Part shown: positions 5,176 to 62,793 of the stretch, piece by piece | Layout: each line of letters begins with the position of its first letter | Position numbering within the stretch: position 1 is the first letter of the stretch | From: Streptomyces sp. NBC_00513 | GTDB lineage: Bacteria > Actinomycetota > Actinomycetes > Streptomycetales > Streptomycetaceae | Length of the DNA: 64,000 nucleotides | NCBI RefSeq assembly: GCF_041431415.1 | Contig: NZ_CP107845.1 | Coordinates: 7,440,001-7,504,000, forward strand | Reading direction: 5' to 3' | Notes under the pieces: generated by a model | Database searches by the model: none | The model's input: the letters and a program-made list of their open reading frames with translations, nothing else | Told to the model about the DNA's origin: nothing | Made by a program: the position numbers and the translations under genes

Positions 5176-6099
5176 ATGTCCCACGCCGCCGCAGTTGTCA
5201 GTCCTTCTCTCGATGTGCGGGTCGGGCCGTGTGTCGTGCCGCCTGTGGGGTCGGTGGTGGAGGGGTCGGGTTCGTCGGTGTTGCCGCGGATCGATGACGC
5301 GCGTGCGGTGGCGCCTTCGGACGCGCGGGAGTTGTCGCGTCTGTTCCTGGTGCGGTTGCGGTCGTTGGAGGAGGGGACGCGTGAGTACCAGTACGCGCGG
5401 AACACGCTGATCGAGATGAACATCTCGTTGGTGAACTTCGCGGCGCGGCGTTTTCGGGGGCGTGCGACCGGTGGTGGTGGGATCGAGTTGGACGACATCG
5501 TCCAGGTCGGGACGATCGGTCTGATCAAGGCGATCGACCGGTTCGATCCGGAGCGTGAGGTGGAGTTCTCGACGTTGGCGCTTCCGTTCATCACGGGGGA
5601 GATCAAGCGGTTCTTCCGTGACACGACGTGGGCGGTGCATGTTCCGCGCCGGTTGCAGGAGCTGCGGACGGAGCTGGCCAAGAGCCAGGAGGCGCTGACG
5701 GAGGTGTTCGGTCGGGCGCCGACGGTCAAGGAGCTGGCCGAGCATCTGGAGTTGTCGCAGGAGCAGGTCGTCGAGGGCATGGTCGCGGCGAACGGTTACA
5801 CGAGCGGGTCGATCGACGAGTCGACGTCCTCGGGGAGTCGGCCGTCCGCGCAGCCGCGTTCGCTGGCGGACACGGTCGGTGACGTGGATCCGGCGATGGA
5901 GTTGTTCGAGGACTTCCACACGCTGGCCCCGTTGCTGAAGGACCTGGCGCCCCGGGATCGGCAGATCCTGGCGATGCGGTTCGGGCAGGAGAAGACCCAG
6001 GCCGAGATCGGCGCCGAACTCGGCATCTCCCAGATGCAGGTCTCCCGCCTCCTGACCCGCACCCTCACCCGCCTGCGCACCGGAATGCTCGCCGGCTAG
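5176..6099 (+). CDS. RNA polymerase sigma factor, SigB/SigF/SigG family
   Basis: 307 aa. Region 2 is unmistakable (NTLIEMNISLVNFAARRF, ELDDIVQVGTIGLIKAIDRF, GEIKRFFRDTTWAVHVPRRL), with region 3 around 165-200 and region 4 at the C-terminus (RDRQILAMRFGQEKTQAEIG, then ISQMQVSRLLTRTLTRLR). This is the stress/development class normally controlled by an anti-sigma kinase and STAS antagonist. No such kinase is adjacent, but STAS/SpoIIE partners lie at 56-63 kb. GGGGAGG at 5160 supports the ATG. The first ~270 codons strongly favour G- or T-ending codons, while the last ~35 switch to C-ending codons. Confidence 0.95.
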   Translation: MSHAAAVVSPSLDVRVGPCVVPPVGSVVEGSGSSVLPRIDDARAVAPSDARELSRLFLVRLRSLEEGTREYQYARNTLIEMNISLVNFAARRFRGRATGGGGIELDDIVQVGTIGLIKAIDRFDPEREVEFSTLALPFITGEIKRFFRDTTWAVHVPRRLQELRTELAKSQEALTEVFGRAPTVKELAEHLELSQEQVVEGMVAANGYTSGSIDESTSSGSRPSAQPRSLADTVGDVDPAMELFEDFHTLAPLLKDLAPRDRQILAMRFGQEKTQAEIGAELGISQMQVSRLLTRTLTRLRTGMLAG

Positions 6100-6184
6100 A
6101 GAGCCCGCGACCCGCACCCATCCGATCGCGTTCGAGTTCCGAATCACCCCGTGAGGGGCTCTTGGAACCGGCCCCCACCTCCAC

Positions 6185-6216
6185 CGTCGGGGCGCGGCGC
6201 GACCCGCGCCCCGACG
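6185..6216. terminator. bidirectional terminator hairpin
   Basis: A perfect 13-bp GC-rich stem (6185-6197 with 6204-6216) encloses a 6-nt loop between the convergent sigma-factor and ThpR genes. There is no T-tract, as usual in Streptomyces. Confidence 0.7.
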
Positions 6217-6253
6217 GCACCCGCCTCGGCCGGCACTCCCGCCCGCGCACCGT

Positions 6254-6835
6254 TCAGTGCCCGTCGAAGCTCCACGCCTCGATGTCGCGGTAGTGGATCG
6301 CTCCCGGGCCGCGCCCGATGTTGCTGCCCACCAGGTGCAGGCGTTCCGTCTGCCAGGGACGGCCGGTGAACCCGGCGAGCTCGGCGGCCACCTTCACGAC
6401 GCTGGAGGGGTCGTCCCGGCGGGATCGGGCCAGCGTCAGATGAGGCCGCAGCGGCCGTTCCTCGAAGTCCACGCCGCACTCCCGGACCAGGGCGCGCACC
6501 TCTGTGGCGAGTCCGTGCAGCCCTTCCAGGTCCCCTTCGATCCCGCTCCACAGCACCCGCTCGTCGAAGTGCCCGCCCCCGCGCATGGCCAGACGCAGGG
6601 GGCGCCGCGCAGCGGCCAGCGCGGCGAGCGGCGGCCGCAGCAGCGGCACGGTCGAGACCGGTAGCTCACCGAGGAACGCCAAGGTGATGTGCCAGTCCTC
6701 GATGCGGTTCCACCGCATGCGGGGGTACGCCTCGTAGGCGGCCCGCAGTTCCCGCGCCAGCTCGTCCTTCGCCTCGTCGGGCGGGGCGAGCGCCACGAAC
6801 ACGCGGACGGTCGAGCCCTGATTCTGTTCCTTCAC
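6254..6835 (-). CDS. thpR: RNA 2',3'-cyclic phosphodiesterase (2H / 2'-5' RNA ligase family)
   Basis: 193 aa, typical length for ThpR. Both 2H catalytic motifs are present: HITLAF at about residue 51-56 and HLTLAR at about 128-133. The N-terminal strand RVFVALAPP and the signature MRWNRIEDWH match the family. The enzyme hydrolyses RNA 2',3'-cyclic phosphates in the cytoplasm. The start is taken at the GTG at 6835 because no ATG or better GTG precedes the first strand; the upstream SD is weak. It stands convergent to the sigma gene and 45 bp downstream of the Tat-lipoprotein hydrolase gene. Confidence 0.88.
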   Translation of the reverse strand: MKEQNQGSTVRVFVALAPPDEAKDELARELRAAYEAYPRMRWNRIEDWHITLAFLGELPVSTVPLLRPPLAALAAARRPLRLAMRGGGHFDERVLWSGIEGDLEGLHGLATEVRALVRECGVDFEERPLRPHLTLARSRRDDPSSVVKVAAELAGFTGRPWQTERLHLVGSNIGRGPGAIHYRDIEAWSFDGH

Positions 6836-6879
6836 GTAGGAATTGGTACCACCGGCCGCCGGGTCGGTCGGGGGCGGGG

Positions 6880-8286
6880 TCAGTTCCCCGACAGGGTGTC
6901 CTGGAGCCAGTCGAAGACGACCTCGCAGTGCAGCTGTGGGGCCATGGGGGAGCAGTGCAGCTGTGCGCCCTCCGCGGCGGTCAGCTTCAGGTAGTCCTTG
7001 GGCGAGGTGAGCTTGTCGTACATCTGGCGCGGTTGGCCGGGGTAGAACTGCTCGTCGTCGTAGTCCAGGACCAGGGTCGGTGCCTTGATCCGGCTGACGA
7101 CCGAGGTGATCGCCAGCGCCTGGATACGGGTCGCGGGGGTGTAGAAGTCGGTGAACAGCTTGCCCTGCCGGCCTTCGAGCATCGCCGGAATCGAGAAGGG
7201 CTCGAAGCGCTTCTTCATCACGGCGGCGGCGTCCGGGGGAAGTTCGGGAACGACCTTCTTGTTCCAGATGTCGTTCGTCTCCTCCCTGCCGGGCGTGAGG
7301 ATCTCCCGGATCTCGGGCGGGAAGCCCAGCCACGGTTCGACGCAGCCCGGCATGGCCACCAGCGCGGCGATCCGGTGCTCGAAGGCCGCCGCCCGCGGAG
7401 CGAGGTCCCCCGCCATGCTCAGACCGGTCAGAGCGATCTTCCCGGGGTCCACGTCGGGACGGGCGGACAGCCAGTCGACGAGCGGGGTGACGACCTTCTC
7501 CCAGGTGGGGGTGAACACCACCCGGTCGACGAAGAGCAGTTGCCCCTGTCCCGGCCCGTCGTAGACGAGCGCGTTCCAACCGCGTTCGAGCGCGGCCGGT
7601 ACGCCGTAGGTCCACATGTCGACGTTCTGCCCGTCGCTCCCGTTGGTCAGGATCACGGTGGGACGGGGAGCGTTCGACTCGTCGGGGCGGAAGAACCACA
7701 CCGGCAGCGGCGTCGTGCCGTACGGTACCGAGGCCTTGACCGGGGCGGGCTCGCACCGGTCGCAGAACGCGTCCCAGGCGCCGCGCCCCGACTTGTACAG
7801 CTGCTCCTCCGACCCCGGATCCTTCGAACCGAGGACGAAGAACAGCGCCTGCCCGTAGTACTGGGCGGCGCGCAAGGCCCGGAACCGCTTGGTCTGGTCG
7901 TCGGCCGGCGCGCCCGGCGGCGGTTTGAGGAGCTTGTCGCCGAGCTGGCGGAACGTTTCGACGTACGTCTGCGCGGAGAGGCCGGCCCCGTTGATCGCGT
8001 TCACGGCGGTGAGGACCTCGCCGACCTCACTGGCCCCGGCCCCGGCGGCACCCAGCGCGAGCAGACCGTTGAAGTTGTACGCCGGGTCCTTGAAGAGCGT
8101 CATCGCCCCGGGAGTGGGGTTCGCGGCCGGTCGCGGCGAGGGGGAGCCGCTGACCGTGGCCGCCGGAGCGCCGCGCTCGCCCCCGGGAGCGCAGCCGGCG
8201 GCGAGCGCCGCCCCCGCCCCCGCGCCGGCGACGAGGAGGGCGCGGCGAGTGGGACCGGACTCGTGGTGGCGTGGTGCGTGCGTCAT
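6880..8286 (-). CDS. Tat-exported lipoprotein, alpha/beta hydrolase
   Basis: 468 aa. The N-terminus has a twin-arginine motif (PTRRALL) and ends in a lipobox LAAG-C32, so the protein is probably Tat-translocated and lipid-anchored outside the membrane. The hydrolase core shows the oxyanion-side motif LVYDGPGQGQ, a nucleophile elbow GLSMAG and a late catalytic Asp region (TLVLDYDDEQF), as in the FrsA/dihydropseudooxynicotine-hydrolase-like group; the terminal His is probably in AEGAQLHC. A long alpha-helical N-terminal domain precedes it. The substrate is unknown. Confidence 0.85.
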   Translation of the reverse strand: MTHAPRHHESGPTRRALLVAGAGAGAALAAGCAPGGERGAPAATVSGSPSPRPAANPTPGAMTLFKDPAYNFNGLLALGAAGAGASEVGEVLTAVNAINGAGLSAQTYVETFRQLGDKLLKPPPGAPADDQTKRFRALRAAQYYGQALFFVLGSKDPGSEEQLYKSGRGAWDAFCDRCEPAPVKASVPYGTTPLPVWFFRPDESNAPRPTVILTNGSDGQNVDMWTYGVPAALERGWNALVYDGPGQGQLLFVDRVVFTPTWEKVVTPLVDWLSARPDVDPGKIALTGLSMAGDLAPRAAAFEHRIAALVAMPGCVEPWLGFPPEIREILTPGREETNDIWNKKVVPELPPDAAAVMKKRFEPFSIPAMLEGRQGKLFTDFYTPATRIQALAITSVVSRIKAPTLVLDYDDEQFYPGQPRQMYDKLTSPKDYLKLTAAEGAQLHCSPMAPQLHCEVVFDWLQDTLSGN

Positions 8287-8834
8287 ACCAGCGGAACGTA
8301 GCCCCGACGCGGCGGGACGACATCTCGTCCTGCCTCCGAACGGCCCATGCCTCGCCGACCACGGTGATCCCGCCCGGTAGCGAAGTGGCTGGTCACGGGC
8401 GTGTTCTCGCCCTCCGCTCGGATGTCCCCCGGAGGGATGGGGGTGCCGCGCCGGCGGCACGACCACCTGACCGCCTGCTGCTCGGCCCCCGCGCCCCGTC
8501 GAGGCGTCGCGGGGCGCGGCCGGGTGGTCGGATCGTACCGATCCGGCCAAGCTGAATGGCCGTCCGGTGAACCGCGTGCGGCCGGCAGCAGGTCAGAAGC
8601 CTCAAGACGGCACGTCCCGACCGAGGTAACCGCCTGTCGGCATGCCGCTACGGAGCGCGCACGTACCCCCTGAGCTGCCCGAACGACCATTCGGTCTCCG
8701 GTATGCGGACGGTGTGTCCGTAAAGCGGCCATCGATGTGCAACTCCCCTTGGGATCAGACAGGGTTGGCCTCACCGAATCGCGATAGCGCAAACAATTAT
8801 CGCGCTCAACCTTTGAATCGAAAGTGAGCTTGTC
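8287..8834. other. 548-bp divergent intergenic region
   Basis: I find no gene with family resemblance here. The right end carries the SSI control region (inverted repeat at 8780-8804). AT content rises in the last 120 bp, as expected for a promoter. Confidence 0.5.
8780..8804 (+). promoter_or_regulatory. candidate operator of the SSI gene
   Basis: A perfect inverted repeat CGCGATA-N11-TATCGCG lies 31 bp before the SSI start codon, in the most AT-rich part of the intergenic region. Its position suggests it overlaps the promoter; the binding protein is unknown. Confidence 0.45.
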
Positions 8835-51767: not shown

Positions 51768-53141
51768 ATGAGTACCAAGCCGCTCAAGCAGATCCACCTC
51801 GCGGCCCACTTCCCGGGCGTCAACAACACCACCGTGTGGGGCGACCCGGCGGCGGGCAGCCACATCGACTTCGACTCGTTCACGCATTTCGCGCGCACCG
51901 CCGAACGCGCCAAGTTCGACTTCCTCTTTCTCGCCGAGGGCCTGCGACTGCGCGAACAGGGCGGACGCATATACGACTTGGACGTCGTGGGCCGCCCCGA
52001 CACCTTCACCGTCCTCGCCGCCCTCGCGGCCGTCACCGAGCGGCTCGGCCTGACGGGCACCATCAACTCGACCTTCAACGAACCGTACGAGGTGGCCCGC
52101 CAGTTCGCCTCCCTCGACCACCTCTCCGAGGGGCGCGCCGCGTGGAACGTGGTCACCTCCTGGGACGCCTTCACCGGGGAGAACTTCCGGCGCGGCGGGT
52201 TCCTGCCCCGCGAGGAGCGCTACTCCCGCGCCCGCGAGTTCCTGTCCACCGCCAACGAACTGTTCGACTCGTGGAACGGCTCGGAGATCGCCGCCGACGC
52301 CACGACCGGCACCTTCCTGCGCGATGCCCGCGCCGGGGCCTTCGCCCATCAGGGGCAACACTTCGACATCGAGGGCCACTTCAACGTGCCCCGCAGCCCG
52401 CAGGGCCGGCCGGTGATCTTCCAGGCCGGTGACTCCGACGAGGGGCGCGAGTTCGCGGCCTCCGGCGCCGACGCGATCTTCGGCCGGCACGCGACCCTGG
52501 ACGAGGGCCGCGCGTTCTACTCCGACGTCAAGAGGCGACTCGCCGCATACGGCCGCACGCCCGATCAGCTGAAGATCCTGCCCGCCGCCACCTTCGTACT
52601 CGGCGACACCGACGCCGAGGCCCACGAGAACGCCCATGAGATCCGCCGCCTCCAGGTCAGCGGGCAGACCGCGATCAAGTACCTGGAGCACGTCTGGAAC
52701 CGGGACCTGTCCGCCTACGATCCGGACGGCCCCCTCCCCGACGTCGACCCGGAGGTCGGCGAGAACACCATCGCCCTCGGGCGCGCGAGCGTGCGGCAGT
52801 TCCGCGACCCCCTGGCCACGGCACGGGAGTGGCGCGAGCTGGCCGAGGCCAAGAACCTCTCCATCCGCGAACTCGTGATCGCGACCACGGCCCGCCAGAC
52901 CTTCATCGGCACCGCCGCCACGGTGGCCGAGTCCATCGACTCGCTGGTCCAACAGGACGCCGCCGACGGATTCATCCTCGTCCCGCACCTGACCCCCGGC
53001 GGCCTGGACGTCTTCGCCGACACCGTGGTCCCGCTGCTCCAGGAACGGGGCGTGTTCCGCGCCGAGTACGAGGGCACCACCCTGCGCGACCACCTGGGGA
53101 TCTCCGTACCCGGCGTGGACCGGGAGGTCGCGGCCTCGTGA
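51768..53141 (+). CDS. NtaA/DmoA/SnaA/DszA-family FMN-dependent monooxygenase
   Basis: 457 aa, full length. Signature QIHLAAHFPGVNNTTVWGDP, FDFLFLAEGLRLREQGGRIY, LDHLSEGRAAWNVVTSWDAF, GRPVIFQAGDSDEGREFAAS. This group includes nitrilotriacetate, dimethylsulfide and dibenzothiophene-sulfone monooxygenases; with the sulfur context a C-S-cleaving role is likely. Requires a separate FMN reductase, none of which is in the window. Its stop overlaps the next gene (GTGA). Confidence 0.93.
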   Translation: MSTKPLKQIHLAAHFPGVNNTTVWGDPAAGSHIDFDSFTHFARTAERAKFDFLFLAEGLRLREQGGRIYDLDVVGRPDTFTVLAALAAVTERLGLTGTINSTFNEPYEVARQFASLDHLSEGRAAWNVVTSWDAFTGENFRRGGFLPREERYSRAREFLSTANELFDSWNGSEIAADATTGTFLRDARAGAFAHQGQHFDIEGHFNVPRSPQGRPVIFQAGDSDEGREFAASGADAIFGRHATLDEGRAFYSDVKRRLAAYGRTPDQLKILPAATFVLGDTDAEAHENAHEIRRLQVSGQTAIKYLEHVWNRDLSAYDPDGPLPDVDPEVGENTIALGRASVRQFRDPLATAREWRELAEAKNLSIRELVIATTARQTFIGTAATVAESIDSLVQQDAADGFILVPHLTPGGLDVFADTVVPLLQERGVFRAEYEGTTLRDHLGISVPGVDREVAAS

Positions 53142-54193
53142 AGTTCCTGGCCATCACCCTGATCACGGACAGCGCCGACCCGGTGACGGGGGCACCGACC
53201 CCCACCCGTGAGCGCTTCCGTCAGGTCGTCTCCGCCGCGGTGCAGGCCGAGCAGCTCGGCTTCGACGGATTCGGGGTCGGCGAACGCCACGAGCGACCGT
53301 TCCTGTCGTCGTCCCCACCCGTGGTGCTCAGCCACATCGCGGCATTGACCCACGAGATCCGGTTGTACACGGCGGTGACCACGCTGAGCCTGCTCGACCC
53401 CGTGCGGGCGTACGAGGACTACGCGACGCTCGACCACCTCAGCGACGGACGCCTGGAGCTGATGATCGGCAAGGGGAACGGCACGGCGCAGCGCGAACTG
53501 TTCGACGTGAGCCCCGAGGACCAGTGGGAACGCAACTCCGAGGGATACGAGCTGTTCCGACGGTTCTGGCACGAGGACAAGGTGACCGCGCGACCGCGCT
53601 TCCGCCCCGCCCTGACCGGCGCCGAGGTGCTGCCCCGGCCCCACCAGCGCAACCTGCGCGTCTGGCACGGCAGTGCCACCAGCCGGGAGTCCGTGGAGCT
53701 CGCGGCACGCCACGGCGACCCGCTGTTCTCGGCGAACGTCACCCATCCCATCGGCCCGTACGCCGAGTTGATCCGCCACTACCGCGAACGCTGGGAACAC
53801 CACGGACACGACCCGGCGCACGCGGTCGTGGGCGCGGGCACGGCCGGCTTCCACACCGCGGCCACCTCACAGCGGGCGGTGGCCGCGTACCGGCCGTCGT
53901 TCGAGCGCTACCTCGCCGCCCACCGGGCGCAGGGCGTCGAGCCGGTCTTCGCGAGCCTGGAGGACTTCGTCGAGCGGAGTTCGGCCCTGATCGGCAGCCC
54001 GCAACAGGTGATCGAGAAGGTGCACCGCTACCACGAGGAGTTCGGCCACACGGTCCTGCACCTCCAGGCCGAACCCGGCGGGCTCACCGATACCGAGCAC
54101 CGGGCCTCCCTCGAACTGTTCCAGTCGCAGGTCGCGCCGGTGCTGCGCCGCTCGATCCCGGACCCCGTCTTCCCCTCCGCCCCCGACCTGTAA
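53138..54193 (+). CDS. LLM flavin-dependent monooxygenase (CE1758-like)
   Basis: 351 aa, GTG start inside the overlap with the preceding gene. MKFLAITLITDSADPVTGAP, GFDGFGVGERHERPFLSSSP, LDHLSDGRLELMIGKGNGTA and VWHGSATSRESVELAARHGD mark a luciferase-like monooxygenase of the CE1758 group. Substrate unknown; translational coupling implies joint work with the DmoA-type enzyme. Confidence 0.92.
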   Translation: MKFLAITLITDSADPVTGAPTPTRERFRQVVSAAVQAEQLGFDGFGVGERHERPFLSSSPPVVLSHIAALTHEIRLYTAVTTLSLLDPVRAYEDYATLDHLSDGRLELMIGKGNGTAQRELFDVSPEDQWERNSEGYELFRRFWHEDKVTARPRFRPALTGAEVLPRPHQRNLRVWHGSATSRESVELAARHGDPLFSANVTHPIGPYAELIRHYRERWEHHGHDPAHAVVGAGTAGFHTAATSQRAVAAYRPSFERYLAAHRAQGVEPVFASLEDFVERSSALIGSPQQVIEKVHRYHEEFGHTVLHLQAEPGGLTDTEHRASLELFQSQVAPVLRRSIPDPVFPSAPDL

Positions 54194-54204
54194 GGAGTAC
54201 GGCC

Positions 54205-55323
54205 ATGTCCGGCATCCCCCTCGGTGTCCTCGACCTCATACCGATCGCCTCCGGTTCCACCGCCGGCGAGGCCCTGCACCACACCATCGACCTGGCCCGG
54301 CAGACGGAGGCCTTCGGCTACGCCCGCTACTGGTTCGCCGAGCACCACCTCAACCCGGGCGTCGCCGGGACCTCCCCGGCGGTCGTGCTCGCGCTGACCG
54401 CCTCCGCGACCACCACGATCCGCATCGGCTCGGGCGCCGTCCAACTGGGCCACCGCACCGCCCTGTCCACGGTCGAGGAGTTCGGCCTGATCGACGCGCT
54501 GCACCCGGGCCGCCTCGACCTGGGGCTGGGCCGTTCGGCCGGACGCCCGCCGAAGCCCGCGCCGGACGCCGAGCCGCCCTTCGAGGGAAGGACCGCGGGC
54601 GGCCTGCTGATCCCGCCCCGCTTCTCCTTCGCCCACCTCCTCGGACACCCGCGCGTCGCCCTCCAGCAGCGACTGCTGAACCTTCCGGGAGCCACCCCGC
54701 AGGACTACGCCGAGCAGGTGTCCGACGTACTGGCCCTGCTCCGCGGCGAGTACCACTCCCCGGAGGGCGTGGAGGCGCACGCCGTACCGGGCGAGGGAGC
54801 CGACGTACAGGTGTGGGTCCTGGGCAGCAGCGGCGGGGTCAGCGCGGAGACCGCCGGCCGCAACGGCCTGCGCTTCGCGGCGAACTACCACGTCAGCCCC
54901 GCCTCGGTACTGGAGGCCGCGGAGGGCTACCGCGCCGCGTTCAAGCCCTCGGACGAACTGGACCGGCCGTACCTGACCGTGTCCGCCGACGTCGTGGTGG
55001 CCGAGGACGACGACACGGCCCGGGAACTGGCCACCGGGTACGCGCCCTGGGTGCGCAGCATCCGTACCGCCGAGGGCGCGATCCCCTTCCCGACGCCCGA
55101 CGAGGCACGCGCGCTGCCGTGGACGGACGCGGACCGGGAGCTGGTGGCGGACCGGGTGGACACTCAGTTCGTGGGCTCGGCGCGGACGGTCGCCGACCAC
55201 CTCGACCGGCTCCAGGAAGCCACCGGGGCCGACGAACTGCTGATCACCACGATCACGCACGACCACGCGGACCGCGTCCGCTCCTACCGCCTGCTCGCCG
55301 AGGAATGGGCACGCCGGGCCTGA
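54205..55323 (+). CDS. LLM flavin-dependent oxidoreductase (MsnO8-like)
   Basis: 372 aa; AAGGAG precedes the ATG at 54205, 12 bp after the previous stop. LGVLDLIPIASGSTAGEALH, ARYWFAEHHLNPGVAGTSPA, IRIGSGAVQLGHRTALSTVE and DALHPGRLDLGLGRSAGRPP match MsnO8-type LLM proteins. Last of the run of four. Confidence 0.92.
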   Translation: MSGIPLGVLDLIPIASGSTAGEALHHTIDLARQTEAFGYARYWFAEHHLNPGVAGTSPAVVLALTASATTTIRIGSGAVQLGHRTALSTVEEFGLIDALHPGRLDLGLGRSAGRPPKPAPDAEPPFEGRTAGGLLIPPRFSFAHLLGHPRVALQQRLLNLPGATPQDYAEQVSDVLALLRGEYHSPEGVEAHAVPGEGADVQVWVLGSSGGVSAETAGRNGLRFAANYHVSPASVLEAAEGYRAAFKPSDELDRPYLTVSADVVVAEDDDTARELATGYAPWVRSIRTAEGAIPFPTPDEARALPWTDADRELVADRVDTQFVGSARTVADHLDRLQEATGADELLITTITHDHADRVRSYRLLAEEWARRA

Positions 55324-55982: not shown

Positions 55983-56486
55983 TCACGGGGCCGCGTCGCG
56001 TGGCGGGTTCTTCTGCTGCGGGAAGCCGGCTGCTGCCGTGATGCCGAGGTTCAGGGCGGCGAGTCCGGTGGCCAGGGCGCGTCGGTTGTCCGAGGTCATC
56101 GATGCGAGGGCCTGGGACAGAGTCTGTTCCCGGCTTTCGCGTATCCGCGCCAGGTGTGCCTGCCCGGCGGGGGTCAGTCTGAGCGTGATCTCACGGCCGC
56201 TGTCCGGACAGGGGTGGCGCTCGATGAACGCGAGGGCCTCAAGGCGGTCGCACAACCGGGTCACGGAAGGGGCGGCCGCGCCGAGGAGCTCGGCCAGGGC
56301 GCGCATGCGGATGCCGGGCCGGCGGTCGACCAGATACATCAGGCGGAGCTGTGACGCGGAGGCCGGCGCGGCCGCGGTGCCCTGGCGGGCGTTCTCCCAT
56401 ATGACGTCGAGGAGTTCGACGATGTCGCCGACGGAACGCGCCTCGTCGTGGCCGATGCTGTGTGCGTCGGTGGCTGGTACTGGCAT
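55983..56486 (-). CDS. MarR family transcriptional regulator
   Basis: 167 aa from the ATG at 56486 (GGAGGGAA upstream). ASQLRLMYLVDRRPGIRMRA, LAELLGAAAPSVTRLCDRLE as HTH and FIERHPCPDSGREITLRLTP wing. 52 bp downstream of the STAS gene on the same strand, so probably last gene of the SpoIIE-B12-STAS operon; it may report or extend the output of that module. Confidence 0.92.
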   Translation of the reverse strand: MPVPATDAHSIGHDEARSVGDIVELLDVIWENARQGTAAAPASASQLRLMYLVDRRPGIRMRALAELLGAAAPSVTRLCDRLEALAFIERHPCPDSGREITLRLTPAGQAHLARIRESREQTLSQALASMTSDNRRALATGLAALNLGITAAAGFPQQKNPPRDAAP

Positions 56487-56538
56487 CTGTGTTCCCTCCA
56501 CACGACCGGATCGCTCGACGCGCCGGCGCGTTCCGGCG

Positions 56539-56964
56539 TCAGACGCCGGTGTCCGGGCTGCCGGAGCGGGCCGGTATGGACTTCTCCGAAGCGGCGGACG
56601 GTCTCTCCGCGGTGGAGGATCCGGACTTGCCCCCTGTGTCCGTGAGGTAGTCCAGCGTACCGGTGACGTGCAGGAGCCGGTCCAGTTTCGTCGGACGGTC
56701 GTCGAGGTGCAGGCGTACGCCCGCCGCGCCGGTGCGCCGCTTGATCATCAGCAGCACCGACAGGCCGGTCGAGTCGACGGCGGTCAGCTCCGCGCAGTGC
56801 AGGTGCACGTCCCGCGGGTCGCTCCGCTCGGTCAGCAGGCGGCTGACGGCGTCCAGGAGGAGATCCGCGCTGTCATGGTCCAGGTCGCCGCGCAGTTCGA
56901 TGCGCACGGCTTCCTCCGTGTCGATGCGTGTCAGGTGCAGTGGGCTGGTGGGCAGGCTGGTCAT
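56539..56964 (-). CDS. STAS-domain anti-sigma factor antagonist
   Basis: 141 aa. EEAVRIELRGDLDHDSADLL and the conserved phospho-Ser region TAVDSTGLSVLLMIKRR (Ser followed by TGL) are diagnostic. A Ser/Lys-rich tail of about 25 residues follows the domain. ATG overlaps the stop of the B12 gene (ATGA). Dephosphorylated antagonists bind anti-sigma kinases and free the sigma factor; the SpoIIE phosphatase two genes upstream is the likely partner. Confidence 0.92.
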   Translation of the reverse strand: MTSLPTSPLHLTRIDTEEAVRIELRGDLDHDSADLLLDAVSRLLTERSDPRDVHLHCAELTAVDSTGLSVLLMIKRRTGAAGVRLHLDDRPTKLDRLLHVTGTLDYLTDTGGKSGSSTAERPSAASEKSIPARSGSPDTGV

Positions 56965-58043
56965 TCGGCGGTCCCGGCGGCGGTGAGGGGGCTACTGGTC
57001 AAGCGGGCGGAGCCGGATCGCAGGATGCCGGCGGCGCGGGGGAAGTCCTTCAGTTCGCGGCCCAGGAGAGCCAGGGCCGGCAGGAGCGAGTCCGCAGGGA
57101 CACCGTGCGAGGTCAGGACGTCGGCGGTCCACCGGATGAATCCGGCGAACAGGTCCTCGTCGTCGGTGTAGAGGGCGACGGCGAGGAACTCCACGATGTG
57201 GGCCAGGTCCTCGGCCGTGCGCTCGCGTTGCGGTTCGCTGTAGCCGCGCATCGCCGGGTAGGCGTCCTCCAGCCCGGTGAAGACCACCCGTACGAGTTGC
57301 GGGCGGCTCCGGGCGACGAGGGTGTACTCCTGGTCGCTCAGGTGCGGGAGGTCGTCGATGGCCTGGTGGTCCGGCTGAGGGCGCGGCAGCGGGGCGCGGG
57401 CCAGGTCGTCGGCGGCGGTGCGGGCGTCGGGGGCCCAGGCGTCCGCACCCAGCAGCCGGGCGTAGCGGCCGTCGGGTCCGAAGGCGGCTCCGCCGACGAG
57501 CACGGGCGTGCCGGCGGCCTGGCAGGCGGTGATCGTCGCGTGCGCGGTGGGCAGGCGGGTGGCGATCGAACCGGAGAGGGCGACGGCGTCCGGGCCGGTG
57601 CGGTGCAGGTGCGCGACGAGGTGCGGCGTGGGGACCTGGGCACCGAGGTAGTCGACGTGCCAGCCGCGCAGCCGCAGCACCTCGGCGAGGAGGCGGGCCG
57701 GCAGGGCGTGCCATTCGCCGTCCACGCAGGCCACCGTGACCCGGCCCCGGGTGCGCGTCCGGTGCGCCGAAGGGTGCTGGGCGAGCGCGGCGACGGCCCG
57801 CTCGTTGATCGCGGTGGCGGCGTGCTCCTGGGCGACGGTGATGCGGTTGGCGGCCCACTCCTCGCCCACCCGCCCCTGGAGCGGGGCGATGACGTCGAGC
57901 AGGACGCTCTCGGCGTCCACACCCTCGTCCAGCGCCCGGAGAACGGCCGTGATCACAGCCGCCTCGTCGAGGCCGAGGATCCCTTCCCACAACTCCTTCG
58001 CCAACTGCCGCGGCGCGGTCGACTCGGTGCTCCGTCGGCTCAC
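56961..58043 (-). CDS. CarH/LitR-like cobalamin-binding sensor without DNA-binding domain
   Basis: 360 aa from the GTG at 58043. Residues 10-95 form the B12-binding helical cap with W63-x9-E73-H74 (EEWAANRITVAQEHAATAIN), the signature that shields the adenosyl group in CarH-type photoreceptors. The Rossmann B12 domain follows (VTVACVDGEWHALPARLLAE; DAVALSGSIATRLPTAHATI; TPVLVGGAAFG), with E110-x-H112 as candidate lower ligand. Residues 235-350 are a helical domain of unknown role. No MerR HTH. Four-base overlaps with both neighbours (SpoIIE and STAS genes) imply one signalling unit. Confidence 0.88.
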   Translation of the reverse strand: MSRRSTESTAPRQLAKELWEGILGLDEAAVITAVLRALDEGVDAESVLLDVIAPLQGRVGEEWAANRITVAQEHAATAINERAVAALAQHPSAHRTRTRGRVTVACVDGEWHALPARLLAEVLRLRGWHVDYLGAQVPTPHLVAHLHRTGPDAVALSGSIATRLPTAHATITACQAAGTPVLVGGAAFGPDGRYARLLGADAWAPDARTAADDLARAPLPRPQPDHQAIDDLPHLSDQEYTLVARSRPQLVRVVFTGLEDAYPAMRGYSEPQRERTAEDLAHIVEFLAVALYTDDEDLFAGFIRWTADVLTSHGVPADSLLPALALLGRELKDFPRAAGILRSGSARLTSSPLTAAGTAE

Positions 58044-59713
58044 GCGGTGAACCTTCCCCGGGTGTGGCCGTCGACGGCGCTCAGGTGGTTGGTGCGCGGC
58101 GCGGAGATCACCACGACGGCCATGTCGTCGTGCCGGCCCGTCCCCACCCACTGGGAGGCGAGCATCTGTACCCGCTCCACGACGGCTTCGGCGGGCATGC
58201 CCGCGCACTCCGAGAGCGCGCGGCGCAGCCGGGCCTCGCCGAACATCGTCCCGCCGAGCGGGCCGCCGCGCGCCTCGCTGATTCCGTCCGTGTAGAGGAC
58301 GCAGGTCTCGCCGGGTGCGAGCGTGACCTGCGCCGTCTTGGCGGTGATGGAAGGCAGCGCACCGACGAGGGTGCCCTGGGTGGGGGCCTCCTCGACCCGC
58401 CCGTCGGAGCGCAGGATCAGGGGCGCCGGATGTCCGGCACTGGTCAGTCGCAGCCGCACGGCGTTGCCCTCGCGTGCCGCGGAGGCCAGGACCATGGTCG
58501 CGAAGCGGGCGTCATGCGTGTTCAGGAGCGCGGTGTTCAGCAGGCTCAACATGCGCTGGTGGTCGTCCGCCAGGGGCAACAGGGCATGCAGGGTGTTGCG
58601 GATCTTGCCCGTCATCACCGCGGCTTCCAGGCCCTTGCCGCAGACGTCTCCGAGCACGACGAGCGAGGCGTCGCCGTCCACCGCCGGGGGGTGGACGTCG
58701 TAGAAGTCCCCGCCGATCCGCTCGTGGTCCAGGGAGGGGCGGTAGCCGCCCGCGTACTCGACGCCGGAGACCTGGTGCAGCGACGGGGGCAGCAGCTCCC
58801 GCATCAGCGTCTCGGTGATCGAAGCCTGCTCCGCGTACAGACGGGCGGCCGACATCGCGGCGCCCGCACGGGCGGCGAACAGGCGGGCGAAGACCTCCTC
58901 GCCCTCCGTGAACGCGTCGCCGTCGGCATGGCGAAGGAGGACCAGGGCGCCCGCGGGCACCCCGTGTCCCGGCAGGGGAGTGATGACGATCGACCCCACC
59001 GGTCCGAAACCGTCGGGAATGAGCCACGAGGGAGCGGCCTCGGGATCGATCCAGCGGGAGGGAACGGGCGGGAAGCCCTGGAGCGCCTCTCCCAGCCCCG
59101 GTACCTCCTCGGGGTCGGCGGCCACACCGAACATCGACGGTGTTCCCCCGCGGAGGCAGGCCACCACGGGCAGTTCACGGCCGCGCGTCGGCGCGATCAC
59201 CAACGCCGCGTCCGCGAGGTGTTCCGCCGCCATCTGCGCCGTGACGTCCATGCACCGGTCCAGATTGAGGGAGGAGAGAAGGAGGTTGGAGGCCTGGGTC
59301 AGGAACGCCGTGCGCTCCTGTTCCATCCGCAGGGCCGCACGAGCCAGGCGGTGGTCGGTGTCGTCGACCAGCCACCACACCACCGTGCCGTCCTCGCGCA
59401 CCGTCGGGTGCGCCTCGTAGGTACGGTCGCCGACCGGTCCCTGCGCCATCGGGTTCCGGACCATCGGGTTCCGGTCGGCGCCTGGGCGCTGCGCCGGAAC
59501 CGCGGCCAGGTACCGGGCGTGAGCCGACGACAGCCAGGCGGGCACCGTGTCGGAGAGCGCCGATCCCGAGTGGGCGCCCGGGAAGACCAGGCCTGCGGCT
59601 TCGTTGACGAACACCAGGTCCGCTTCGGCGTCCGCCACCAGCACCGGGTAGGGGGCCTCACTCCACGGGATGCCCACCGCGGTCGAACCGGCGGATGACT
59701 GGGTGGAATTCAC
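58040..59713 (-). CDS. SpoIIE-type PP2C serine phosphatase with PAS and GAF domains
   Basis: 557 aa from the GTG at 59713. PAS-like N-terminus (EAPYPVLVADAEADLVFVNE), GAF at about 140-290 (ASNLLLSSLNLDRCMDVTAQ), phosphatase domain at 320-540 with metal-binding GGDFYDV and VLGDVCGKG, then LYTDGISEARGG and GRHDDMAVVVI. Stop overlaps the B12 gene start (GTGA). It should dephosphorylate a STAS antagonist, most simply the one in its own operon. Confidence 0.93.
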   Translation of the reverse strand: MNSTQSSAGSTAVGIPWSEAPYPVLVADAEADLVFVNEAAGLVFPGAHSGSALSDTVPAWLSSAHARYLAAVPAQRPGADRNPMVRNPMAQGPVGDRTYEAHPTVREDGTVVWWLVDDTDHRLARAALRMEQERTAFLTQASNLLLSSLNLDRCMDVTAQMAAEHLADAALVIAPTRGRELPVVACLRGGTPSMFGVAADPEEVPGLGEALQGFPPVPSRWIDPEAAPSWLIPDGFGPVGSIVITPLPGHGVPAGALVLLRHADGDAFTEGEEVFARLFAARAGAAMSAARLYAEQASITETLMRELLPPSLHQVSGVEYAGGYRPSLDHERIGGDFYDVHPPAVDGDASLVVLGDVCGKGLEAAVMTGKIRNTLHALLPLADDHQRMLSLLNTALLNTHDARFATMVLASAAREGNAVRLRLTSAGHPAPLILRSDGRVEEAPTQGTLVGALPSITAKTAQVTLAPGETCVLYTDGISEARGGPLGGTMFGEARLRRALSECAGMPAEAVVERVQMLASQWVGTGRHDDMAVVVISAPRTNHLSAVDGHTRGRFTA

Positions 59714-60103
59714 CAAACGTAGAAGGCCCGCTGCGCGAACCCCTCACCTCATCGTCTCGAAGGAAACATTCTTGCCTTCCGGCAACCATCCTCCATTCGT
59801 TGCTCCCTTGGCAACCACGCCCCCCGCGCGGCGCCGTCCCCCACCGGACGCACACCGGACGAACACACCGTCTCCTCCGATGCCGAAGCCGGCGCCGTGA
59901 GAACCGTCACCCGTTCGCGACGGCATGGCCCGCGATCGGGCGGGCAGACGTGCGTCGGGTCGATGCGAGTCGCCGGATGTGAGACGTCAGCCGCGTGGAC
60001 GTCGACCGCCCGTCGGTGTCCACGCCCGGCAGGCCCCGGACCCCGACGGCACGGTGCCTATGACCAGCCGGTACCGGTCACGACGAGGCGGAGGTGGCCA
60101 CAG
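59714..60103. other. 390-bp divergent control region of the two SpoIIE operons
   Basis: No gene. A TTGCC-TTCC-GGCAA dyad is at 59772-59785, with a second GGCAACC motif at 59810. I could not fit a convincing sigma-B-type promoter (GTTT / GGGTA) on either strand. Confidence 0.5.
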
Positions 60104-60520
60104 GTGTTCTCGGTAAGCGTCCGGCGCACCGCGCGGGCATGCGTGTTCGCCCTCCACGGCGAGCTCGACTACGACAGCGCCGTTCAGCTCCAGGAAGCAG
60201 CCGACCTGGTCCTCACCGGCCCCGACCAGCCGGGCCTGGTCGTGGTCGACTGCACGGCCCTCGCCTTCTGCGACTCCTCCGGCATCGGCGGCCTGATCAG
60301 GATCTACCAGAAGCTGTCGGCGCACGGCGGTGTGCTGCGCCTCGCGGCGGCCCCCGGCTCGGTGGCGCGGGTCTTCGCGCTGACCGGCCTGGACCACGCG
60401 ATCGCCGTACACCCCACACCAGAGAGCGCCCTGTTGTCCGGCGCCGGTCCACGAGAAACCGGCAGCGAGGCCCCCGCGCCTCCAGCGCGTCGGGCAAGCG
60501 AGAGGTCGACAGGGCGATGA
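60104..60520 (+). CDS. STAS-domain anti-sigma factor antagonist
   Basis: 138 aa from the GTG at 60104 (GGAGG upstream). ACVFALHGELDYDSAVQLQE and VVVDCTALAFCDSSGIGGLI carry the STAS core, with Ser-Ser-Gly at the phosphorylation site. The stop overlaps the next gene by four bases (ATGA), making an antagonist-phosphatase pair mirror-image to the B12 operon. Confidence 0.92.
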   Translation: MFSVSVRRTARACVFALHGELDYDSAVQLQEAADLVLTGPDQPGLVVVDCTALAFCDSSGIGGLIRIYQKLSAHGGVLRLAAAPGSVARVFALTGLDHAIAVHPTPESALLSGAGPRETGSEAPAPPARRASERSTGR

Positions 60521-62793
60521 CCCGAGTTCCAGGACAGCAGCCCCCGGCGACCGCCGGGCCGGCAAACGACCCCGACAGCGGCTTCGAACGCGACGCCGAA
60601 GGTCGGATCGACGGGGTGGACGGCCGCTCGGAGCACGACCTGCGGGCACTCTTCGGCCAGTCCACTGCCGTCTTCGCATCCCTGGCCGGCCCGGCCCACA
60701 TGGTGGAGGACGCCAACGCGGCCTTCTTCAGCGCGATCGGCGCCGGAGAGCGCGTGCGCACGAGGATCCCGCTGAAAGAGGTGATGCCCCAACCGGAGGC
60801 ACAGGGCATCCTCAAACTCCTGGACCGGGTCTACCGGGCCGGCGAACGCCACACCGGGCCGGACACCCGGACCGTCCTGGACCACGGTCCCGCGGCGCGC
60901 GAGGCCTTCTTCGACTTCACGTACGAGCCACGCCTCGACGCCGCAGGCAACGTCATGGGCGTACTCGTCACCGGAGTGGAGACCACGCAGGTCAAGCAGG
61001 CCCAACGGCTCACCGCCGAACACCGCGCCCTGCTCGAACAGATCGCCCGCCAGGCGCCGTTGGAACAGGTACTGGACGGCATGGCCCGCACCATCGAGGA
61101 ACTGGCCCCCGAGGAAGTCCTCGTGTCCGTCCTCCTCGCCGACACCGAGGGCCGGCACCTGCACCACGGCGCCGCCCCCAGCCTCCCCGACTTCTACAAC
61201 CAGGCCATCGACGGCATCGCCGCGGGCGAGGGCGTCGGCTCCTGCGGCACCGCCGCCCACCGGCGGCAACCCGTCATCGTCAGCGACATCGCCACCGACC
61301 CCTTCTGGGACGACTTCCGCGACCTGGCCGGGAAGGCGGGCGTGGCAGCCTGCTGGTCCACCCCGATCCTGGCCAGGGACAGGTCACTGCTGGGCACCTT
61401 CGCCATGTACCACCGCGTTCCCCGCGCACCGCAGGAGTCCGACCTGGCCCTCGCCCGGATGTTCGCCGACACGGCGGCCCTCGCCATCGAGCGGCACCAG
61501 GCCGAACAGGCCCGGGCCCTCGCCGAGGCCAGGGAAGAAGCCGCACGCCGGGACCTCGCGTTCCTGCTGGCGGCCAGCACCTCCCTCACCTCCGACCTCG
61601 ACCACACCGAGACCCTGCGGCGCCTGACCACCGCGTGCGCCCCGGCCCTGGCGCCGCTGTGCACGGTCGACGTCATCGACGCCGGCCGCGTCAAGCGCGT
61701 CGCCACGACCGCACCCTCTCCTCTCCAAGAGCGGCTCCTCGCCTCCCACATCCCCGTCTACGACGCCGATGACGACGCCGTGTCCCGGGTCCTGGCCACC
61801 GGCCTGAGCGAGGTCGCCCGACGCACCCCCACCGGCCCGGGCCCGTGGAACGACCTCAACGTCACCGGCTACCTGTGCGTCCCGCTGCTCGACCGCGGCT
61901 CGGCCTTCGGCGTCATGACCCTGCTCACCACTGGCGAGGACGCCTTCGACGGACACACCGTCGCGCTGGCCGAGGAACTCGCCCGCCGCGCCGCCTCCGC
62001 GGCCCTCAACGCCCGCCAGTACACCCAGCGCGCCGCCCTCGCCCGCGACCTCCAGTCCGGTCTGCTGCTGCCCGAGGTCCCGAACGTGCCCGGCGCCGAC
62101 ATCGCCACCTACTACCACCCCGCGGGCGAAGGCCTCAACATCGGCGGCGACTTCTACGACGTGTTCCCCCTCGAAGAGGGCACTTGGGCGTTCATGCTCG
62201 GCGACGTCTGCGGACGCGGCGCCACCGCCGCCACCACGACCGCCCTCGTCCGCCACACCGCCCGCGCCGTCGCCCCGCTGCTCCCGGACCCCGAAGCCGT
62301 GGTCCGTGCGGTCAACAAGGCACTCCTCGATCGCCCCAGCAGCCACGGAACCGGCTTCGTCACGCTCGTCTACGGCCACCTGACACCCGTCGCCGGTGGC
62401 GGCCTCGACATCACACTCGTCCGGGCCGGCCACACCCACCCCCTCCTCATCGACGCCCGGCAGACCCCGCGCCCCGTCGCCGGGGAGGGCCTGCTGCTGG
62501 GAATCACCCGCACCCCGGACCTCACCGCCCGCCACATCCGCCTGCGGCCCACCCAGAGCCTGCTGCTCTACACCGACGGCATCACCGAAGCCCGCAACGA
62601 GCACGACGAGCAGTTCGGCGAGGAAGGCCTCGCCAACGCCCTGGCCACACCCCGGGCGGCCACCGCGGCGGACGTCATCGACACCCTGGTCCGCGCCGTC
62701 CGGGCCTTCAGCGGCGCCGGCGGCATCGATGACGACCAGGCGGCCCTCGTCCTGACCGCGACCGCGACCGCCGCCGCGACCTCCGGTACGTAA
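60517..62793 (+). CDS. PAS-GAF-GAF-SpoIIE phosphatase
   Basis: 758 aa. PAS at about 45-155 (LAGPAHMVEDANAAFFSAIG), GAF-1 at about 185-330 (EEVLVSVLLADTEGRHLHHG), GAF-2 at about 355-510, PP2C at about 525-755 with GGDFYDVFPLEEG, MLGDVCGRGATAATTT and LYTDGITEARNE. It is one of the common multi-sensor phosphatases of Streptomyces. Coupled to the STAS gene; may also act on the neighbouring B12-module antagonist. Confidence 0.94.
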   Translation: MTRVPGQQPPATAGPANDPDSGFERDAEGRIDGVDGRSEHDLRALFGQSTAVFASLAGPAHMVEDANAAFFSAIGAGERVRTRIPLKEVMPQPEAQGILKLLDRVYRAGERHTGPDTRTVLDHGPAAREAFFDFTYEPRLDAAGNVMGVLVTGVETTQVKQAQRLTAEHRALLEQIARQAPLEQVLDGMARTIEELAPEEVLVSVLLADTEGRHLHHGAAPSLPDFYNQAIDGIAAGEGVGSCGTAAHRRQPVIVSDIATDPFWDDFRDLAGKAGVAACWSTPILARDRSLLGTFAMYHRVPRAPQESDLALARMFADTAALAIERHQAEQARALAEAREEAARRDLAFLLAASTSLTSDLDHTETLRRLTTACAPALAPLCTVDVIDAGRVKRVATTAPSPLQERLLASHIPVYDADDDAVSRVLATGLSEVARRTPTGPGPWNDLNVTGYLCVPLLDRGSAFGVMTLLTTGEDAFDGHTVALAEELARRAASAALNARQYTQRAALARDLQSGLLLPEVPNVPGADIATYYHPAGEGLNIGGDFYDVFPLEEGTWAFMLGDVCGRGATAATTTALVRHTARAVAPLLPDPEAVVRAVNKALLDRPSSHGTGFVTLVYGHLTPVAGGGLDITLVRAGHTHPLLIDARQTPRPVAGEGLLLGITRTPDLTARHIRLRPTQSLLLYTDGITEARNEHDEQFGEEGLANALATPRAATAADVIDTLVRAVRAFSGAGGIDDDQAALVLTATATAAATSGT

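Follow-up and report, generated by a model that had tools for sequence, protein, structure and literature searches.

The DNA analysed here, called the window throughout, is a stretch of 64,000 nucleotides from Streptomyces sp. NBC_00513 (positions 7,440,001-7,504,000 of contig 1, NZ_CP107845.1, in an assembly of 8.6 Mb). Its minus strand carries an operon of three genes, encoding a SpoIIE/RsbU-type PP2C phosphatase (here SpoIIE), a photocobilin, and a STAS protein of the anti-sigma-factor-antagonist type. In the list that follows, residues of the photocobilin are aligned to those of SasPcob, the photocobilin of Saccharothrix syringae (8J2W/8J2X), and conservation is counted, as in every count out of 80 below, over the best 80 of 357 photocobilin relatives found in a scan of one genome per species.

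59716-58040, minus strand: SpoIIE gene, 558 amino acids, TTG start
58103-58672, minus strand: PP2C catalytic domain of SpoIIE, metal-site Asp residues kept
58043-58087, minus strand: C-terminal tail of SpoIIE, HLSAVDGHTRGRFTA, a candidate docking peptide, conserved and predicted to be disordered (predicted local distance difference test, pLDDT, < 50)
58040-58043, minus strand: GTGA stop/start overlap of the SpoIIE and photocobilin genes, kept in 79/80
58043-56961, minus strand: photocobilin gene, 360 amino acids, GTG start
56961-58043, minus strand: the photocobilin itself, B12-binding domains followed by a C-terminal photoglobin domain, as assigned by Pfam, structure-sequence match and predicted fold
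57783-58001, minus strand: four-helix B12-binding_2 domain with W63 and E73-H74 (adenosyl pocket), PF02607 at 56.7 bits, aligned to SasPcob W61, E71, H72
57414-57746, minus strand: Rossmann B12-binding domain with H112 (cobalt lower ligand) and H141, PF02310 at 67.8 bits, aligned to SasPcob H108, H137
57321-57356, minus strand: linker motif DDLPHLSDQEYT, residues 230-241, six positions invariant in 80/80
56994-57362, minus strand: photoglobin (biliverdin-type) domain with D279 and W305 and no Cys, aligned to SasPcob D270, W296, with a fold match
56961-56964, minus strand: ATGA stop/start overlap of the photocobilin and STAS genes, kept in 72 of the 76 loci with a STAS gene
56964-56539, minus strand: STAS gene, 141 amino acids, ATG start

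An earlier reading, made from the letters of the window (the sequence-only reading), had described three genes joined by four-base stop/start overlaps, and both overlaps are indeed present. The end that it gave to the first gene corresponds to an in-frame GTG at 59713, inside the SpoIIE gene as delimited here.

Identity and cofactor residues of the middle protein

Comparisons of sequence and predicted fold make it nearly certain that the middle protein is a photocobilin. A Pfam search places PF02607 (residues 15-87) and PF02310 (residues 100-210) above their cut-offs, returns no MerR, no other helix-turn-helix and no STAS match, and leaves residues 211-360 blank. The closest solved structures by sequence are SasPcob in its dark and light states (8j2w/8j2x; E 6e-83 over residues 17-346, with 157 of 323 aligned residues identical), followed by AbPcob (E 2.8e-38), with full-length CarH a much weaker match (E 2.4e-9); the CarH family model gives the protein 57.2 bits against a cut-off of 400. 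An AlphaFold2 model built on a 25-sequence alignment (pLDDT 88.4, predicted template modelling score 0.84) finds its best PDB fold match, again, in SasPcob (E 2.7e-25, template modelling score, TM, 0.83), and includes at residues ~228-350 a photoglobin-fold domain which the sequence-only reading had overlooked. All seven mapped cofactor residues of SasPcob (W61, E71, H72, H108, H137, D270 and W296) are identical in the window protein (W63, E73, H74, H112, H141, D279 and W305), aligning at one constant offset.

The sequence-only reading had taken this protein for a CarH-like B12 sensor without a MerR DNA-binding domain. The motifs on which it relied are present, as W63-x9-E73H74 and E110-x-H112-xx-P115, and the absence of MerR holds; the reading of a CarH-like site for adenosylcobalamin (AdoCbl) is supported, but the protein is more than CarH minus MerR, being a photocobilin with a second, biliverdin-type domain. 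With CarH/LitR (5C8D, 3WHP) it shares W-x9-EH, the lower-ligand His and the fold of the B12 domain, whereas CarH carries a DNA-binding domain of MerR type and lacks a photoglobin. A Pro in place of the last Gly of the lower-ligand motif had been remarked on as a possible source of altered ligand geometry. Pro115 is there, but is not peculiar to this protein: it is common to SasPcob and to 80/80 relatives, and the His of the SasPcob motif ligates cobalt (Zhang et al. 2024, PMC10979010).

Among the best 80 relatives, D279 and W305 are kept in 80/80, and the adenosyl-pocket W-x9-EH is likewise retained. The invariance of H112, W305 and E110 is partly built in, because the scan used six peptide patterns, two of which contain H112 and W305; W63, E73, H74, H141 and D279 lie outside all six. 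The translation has no Cys after residue 210, and since the globin domain thus lacks Cys, biliverdin is predicted to be held non-covalently; that of SasPcob is also not covalently bound (PMC10979010). The window photocobilin is likely to be a light sensor.

SasPcob resembles the window protein in two-part architecture, in 7/7 mapped residues, in ~49% identity and in fold (TM 0.83), and SpoIIE likewise lies upstream in relatives closer to SasPcob (L176, L237, L238), of which L176 has STAS too. It differs in lying on another branch of the tree, which was built on 155 loci with 151 distinct photocobilin sequences including references. Within the set compared, identity to the window protein is 57-80% for most photocobilins encoded in such an operon, against 49.5% for SasPcob. 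The photocobilin-diguanylate cyclase fusion AbDPcob/AbPcob (8J2Y) also combines B12 and photoglobin domains, but is 34% identical, is fused to its enzyme, and has His at the position of the biliverdin Asp.

The operon and its conservation among relatives

SpoIIE matches PF07228 with 145.5 bits over residues 349-538, and its metal-site residues D337 and D357 are kept in 80/80 relatives, D477 and D531 in 79/80. The PP2C domain resembles those of Rv1364c, RssB and SpoIIE, Rv1364c being the nearest solved PP2C by sequence. The N-terminus was modelled as PAS-like and GAF-like domains; Pfam places a GAF domain at residues 152-287 below threshold (17.5 against a cut-off of 22.4 bits) and finds no PAS match in SpoIIE, the PAS-like reading resting on the fold model. 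The STAS protein (PF13466, 52.2 bits) has a candidate phosphosite, S65, in a DSTGL segment that aligns to DSSGL of SpoIIAA, and the phosphorylatable Ser is kept in 74/76 STAS relatives. A PP2C phosphatase paired with a STAS antagonist with a conserved Ser is also the arrangement of RsbU-RsbV-RsbW and SpoIIE-SpoIIAA-SpoIIAB, from which the window system differs in having a separate photocobilin as its input and no kinase in its operon.

The sequence-only reading had suggested a search of other genomes for the same three-gene order, and this order proved to be widely kept. Neighbouring genes were sought in stop-to-stop frames with home-made profiles. SpoIIE lies directly upstream of the photocobilin gene, on the same strand, in 80/80 relatives (in L035 it is split over frames), and STAS lies downstream in 76/80 (it was not found in L013, L055, L066 and L087). 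Among the hosts are Streptomyces, Streptantibioticus, Actinacidiphila, Amycolatopsis, Saccharothrix, Kutzneria, Actinokineospora, Actinosynnema, Pseudonocardia and mycobacteria, and the three-gene order is not due to chance. Of 121 sampled genomes from the genus, 47 had photocobilin-like matches better than 1e-50 (own genome included; the match in G062 covers the B12 half only). Scored by a strict rule in 53 genus loci, own locus excluded, SpoIIE is upstream in 50 and STAS downstream in 38; two of the three SpoIIE misses have SpoIIE with broken reading frames (L236, L241) and the third (L235) shows none. In a phylum sample of 396 genomes, 22 had a photocobilin match at 1e-25; of the loci from other genera of the same class, 6/6 have SpoIIE and 3/6 STAS. 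The SpoIIE-photocobilin pair looks like an actinomycete trait, with STAS as its usual, not constant, third member.

Several of these loci are unusual. The photocobilin gene of L241 runs, after its B12 half, in frame into a trehalase/GH15-like protein (5959-8544), and the same locus has SpoIIE spread across two frames, with a pair of kinase genes upstream; it is perhaps a decayed locus. In L215 (2808-4061, 417 amino acids) and L203 (2856-4121, 421 amino acids) a second SpoIIE-domain protein is encoded directly upstream of the operon SpoIIE, that of L215 reading GDSFDW at the usual GGDFYD; close relatives of this second protein were seen as 17 frames in the 80 loci and 17 in 75 others.

The operon proteins carry two conserved segments of potential relevance to contact. 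The first is the linker DDLPHLxDQEYT, situated between the B12 and globin domains of the photocobilin, in which L232, P233, H234, L235, D237 and E239 are found in 80/80 relatives. The idea that this linker is exclusive to the clade of the window was rejected, since SasPcob keeps 4/12 of the residues of DDLPHLSDQEYT and some other relatives on its branch keep more, such as L176 with 7/12; it is fullest in the clade of the window, one member of which (L227) has lost most of it.

The second is the C-terminal tail of SpoIIE, with the consensus HL(S/T)AVxGHxRGR(F/Y)TA. A loose pattern finds it in 74/79 of the best loci, a first, stricter one in 28/80, the pattern having been loosened after the sequences were inspected. 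The likely ribosome site of the photocobilin gene extends over the last SpoIIE codons. At codons -20 to -9, conserved positions keep their amino acid and vary in the third base, which argues that selection acts on the protein. Among loci with SpoIIE, the tail is present in 106/115 with an adjacent STAS gene against 3/22 without one (nine STAS loci lack the tail and three tail loci lack STAS); this count omits 18 of the 155 loci as having no SpoIIE by the strict rule, among them L084, whose SpoIIE is found by another search. The association is a hint only, because the loci are related, the tree order, as we read it, implies only a handful of independent losses, and the pattern was loosened post hoc; the Fisher value computed for it should not be taken as a probability. 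Judged from sequence conservation, protein contact may run through these two candidates, the sensor linker and the SpoIIE tail.

A kinase gene is linked to the operon in some relatives. A match to the kinase profile HATPase_c_2 lies contiguously upstream, on the same strand, in 11/80 relatives, nine of them Amycolatopsis; at least 8 of these 11 kinases come after another STAS gene, so that the fullest loci, such as L044, read STAS-kinase-SpoIIE-photocobilin-STAS. The match is divergent and upstream in 8/80 and downstream in 9/80, giving 28/80 with a kinase near the operon in total, and the genus sample has one near the operon in 19/53 loci. Among the 80, Pfam checks of the neighbouring kinase matches covered L037, L044, L061, L068 and L077. 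As a rough control we scored the surroundings of SpoIIE genes in the own genome, with 45/47 SpoIIE, 24/37 STAS and 53/85 kinase matches included. STAS lies within 3 kb at only 5/45 SpoIIE places, which serves as the comparison for gene order, and a kinase match lies within 0.9 kb of 15/45 and within 5 kb of 6 more. Because kinases are thus commonly near SpoIIE, those linked to the operon support, and do not prove, a partner-switch reading.

A proposed light-driven partner switch and the alternatives

The notion that photocobilins act through such partners is already in print as a suggestion for SasPcob, which Zhang et al. 2024 (PMC10979010) listed as potentially interacting with STAS and SpoIIE on the basis of gene neighbourhood and STRING. 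The same paper shows that AdoCbl and biliverdin both bind, that AdoCbl is converted by green light and, once biliverdin is in place, by red light as well, that SasPcob is a monomer in its light state, and that the holo light state of SasPcob activates an unfused diguanylate cyclase in trans. In addition, Rockwell et al. (PMC10151467) grouped photoglobins with phycobiliproteins and used the globin domain of RsbR as outgroup, a placement that ties the photoglobin sensor domain to a known partner-switch sensor. RsbR of the stressosome differs in having its globin fused to a STAS domain, whereas the window photocobilin has no STAS match by Pfam. Since photocobilins are known and the partner idea is published, novelty is limited; the present findings add the conservation of the operon, the kinases linked to it in some relatives, and the conserved sensor linker and SpoIIE tail. 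Among the papers listed by literature searches on photocobilins, on B12-binding, STAS and SpoIIE proteins and on light and partner switching, none appeared, from its title and the opening of its abstract, to test this operon.

We propose, with a probability of about 0.6, that light sets the state of the pigments in the photocobilin, that this state alters the activity of SpoIIE on the STAS protein by direct contact, and that the STAS protein relays the change to an RsbW-type kinase and a sigma factor. Sequence and its conservation carry four parts of this scheme: the assignment of the middle protein to the photocobilins, the residues of the catalytic site and the phosphosite, the kept gene order, and the kinases linked to it in some relatives. 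The photochemistry of the window protein itself, its contact with SpoIIE, the direction of the effect, and the involvement of a kinase and a sigma factor are inferred. Contact between photocobilin and SpoIIE is what gene order most readily suggests.

In the dark, the photocobilin would hold AdoCbl with H112 below the cobalt and the adenosyl group against W63 and E73-H74, while biliverdin would sit non-covalently in the C-terminal globin domain (D279, W305), and this form is expected to be a head-to-tail dimer. Green light acting on AdoCbl, or red light acting by way of biliverdin, would break the Co-C bond, and the dimer would fall apart into monomers. The change would be passed by direct contact to the co-translated SpoIIE, altering its activity toward S65 of the STAS protein; that light activates the phosphatase is our guess at the direction. 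The phosphorylation state of the STAS protein would then decide its hold on an RsbW-type kinase and hence the freedom of a sigma factor. More tentatively, and at somewhat less than even odds, a clade of photocobilins could be the input of a self-contained, two-pigment, light-driven partner switch of PP2C phosphatase, STAS protein, kinase and sigma factor, with contact through the linker and the SpoIIE tail.

A precedent for light reaching a sigma factor through partner switching is the LOV-STAS protein YtvA, a light-sensing protein of the stressosome, which uses flavin and blue light and has its sensor fused to STAS. The window sensor, by contrast, is predicted to use B12 and a bilin, and is without a STAS domain. 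The sequence-only reading had already supposed that light, by way of AdoCbl, tunes a sigma factor by protein partners and not by DNA binding. The conserved SpoIIE/STAS operon and the lack of a helix-turn-helix lend this partial support, but the idea was not new, having been published for SasPcob.

A number of observations weigh against the proposed scheme, and some of them are the ground for other explanations. Gene order is itself no proof of protein contact, and no HATPase_c_2 match among the 85 in the genome lies nearer to the operon than ~43 kb. The direction of the effect is not simple in the published system, where the effect of SasPcob on the cyclase is reversed without biliverdin (PMC10979010). 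Beyond the best 80 relatives, D279 is replaced by F in L242-L244 and by T in L184 and L187, and W305 by F in L237-L240 and L242-L244; W63, E73, H74 and H112 are kept in those of the inspected alignment rows that cover them. Since SpoIIE is still upstream in loci with altered biliverdin residues, an intact SasPcob-like biliverdin site is not needed for pairing with SpoIIE; the clade to which the window protein belongs does have it intact. A heme oxygenase gene is found in the own genome, so biliverdin can be made, but co-occurrence of this gene proved uninformative as a test of biliverdin use, 113/121 genus genomes carrying it, and two photocobilin genomes of the genus sample (G044 and G113) have no heme oxygenase match.

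The heme oxygenase gene of the own genome (L247, 4938-5642) adjoins heme-uptake-like genes, as judged by eye, and may serve iron acquisition besides bilin supply.

The altered biliverdin residues of some SpoIIE-linked relatives, in which the B12 residues are retained, also speak for a different role, in which the photocobilin reports the level of AdoCbl or its redox state (together with bilin), the apo and AdoCbl forms differ in assembly and so set SpoIIE activity, and light is incidental. In darkness, AdoCbl would be bound through these same residues, and the published fusion is less active as a diguanylate cyclase with AdoCbl alone than in its apo form (PMC10979010). However, the best 80 relatives retain W-x9-EH together with both the biliverdin Asp and the coupling Trp, which fits selection for a two-pigment light reaction, and we regard this role as unlikely, if the strongest of the competitors to the light-driven SpoIIE switch.

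The place of the STAS protein bears on a second alternative. STAS is absent from 15/53 genus loci, a further point against the proposed scheme, and it may therefore not be the sole target. The photocobilin could instead act directly on STAS or on the kinase as a rival binding partner, with SpoIIE merely resetting the system. The translational coupling of STAS to the photocobilin is in keeping with this, as is the use of the RsbR stressosome globin domain as a photoglobin outgroup, for which it must be sufficiently related (PMC10151467). SpoIIE is, however, the steadier neighbour, missing by the strict rule from 3/53 loci (two of these through broken frames), and we rate direct action on STAS or kinase a little lower again than reporting of AdoCbl. 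Finally, photocobilin loci outside the class have a SpoIIE neighbour in 0/14 of those sampled, some of them on short contigs. This counts against the light-driven switch as well, and agrees with a photocobilin that has no regulatory tie to its neighbours and is just co-expressed with them. Given that order and overlap are maintained in Streptomyces, Amycolatopsis, Saccharothrix, Pseudonocardia, Kutzneria and mycobacteria, such an unconnected photocobilin appears very improbable.

If the light-driven SpoIIE switch is correct, red and green light would be inputs to sigma-factor control across actinomycetes, and light sensing by B12 and bilin would reach beyond DNA repressors and fused enzymes into the control of sigma factors in bacteria that are not photosynthetic; the operon would also provide a natural phosphatase under red/green control. 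The conserved and translationally coupled set of partners makes the role of standalone photocobilins testable with three small proteins.

Upstream region and neighbouring genes

Three further features flank the operon.

59782-59816, minus strand: conserved direct repeat GGTTGC-N23-GGTTGC, from an alignment of 12 upstream regions
59735-59750, minus strand: conserved block GAGGTGAGGGGTTCGC just before the SpoIIE start, from the same alignment
55983-56501, minus strand: MarR-family regulator gene, PF12802 at 44.7 bits

In the window, the region upstream of the operon (59735-59816) also has an inverted repeat, TTGCC-N4-GGCAA, at the GGTTGC direct repeat. A regulon sharing these motifs was sought and none was found: GGTTGC-N23-GGTTGC has 4 exact matches in the genome, that of the operon included, and when one mismatch is allowed it matches 55 times, its reversed pattern 41 times; GAGGTGAGGGGTTCGC has no other exact match in the genome, and 14 matches against 9 when two mismatches are allowed. 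A sigma-B-like promoter upstream of the operon (consensus G..T-N15-17-GGGTAY) was rejected, occurring in 1/81 upstream regions where simple shuffling predicts 2.4.

The MarR-family gene starts 37 bases beyond the STAS stop, on the same strand. The sequence-only reading had made the phosphatase and the STAS protein the only partners of the B12 protein; both are indeed conserved neighbours, but the linkage of this fourth gene qualifies the claim. A MarR relative occupies the same place in 29/80 relatives (30 with a weaker, long-frame match in L009) and in 8/53 genus loci, and several other loci have one upstream and divergent. The gene is probably a fourth member of the operon in this clade, and its product is possibly a regulator of it.

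Divergent from the operon, 60104-62793 comprises a STAS gene and a PAS-GAF-GAF-SpoIIE gene, with a four-base overlap if the latter starts at 60517. This pair was rejected as part of the system, its close relatives standing beside the operon in merely 2/80 relatives (L008 and L079). On the other side, three adjacent genes whose products resemble luciferase-like flavin monooxygenases occupy 51768-55323, the first assigned by PF00296 and the others by eye. Elsewhere in the own genome (L007, 1351-2424) there is a gene for a MerR-like, LitR-like B12 protein beside an ECF-sigma-like (extracytoplasmic function) gene, both recognized by eye; the pair is reminiscent of LitR/LitS, and the B12 protein is possibly a second B12 light sensor of this organism.

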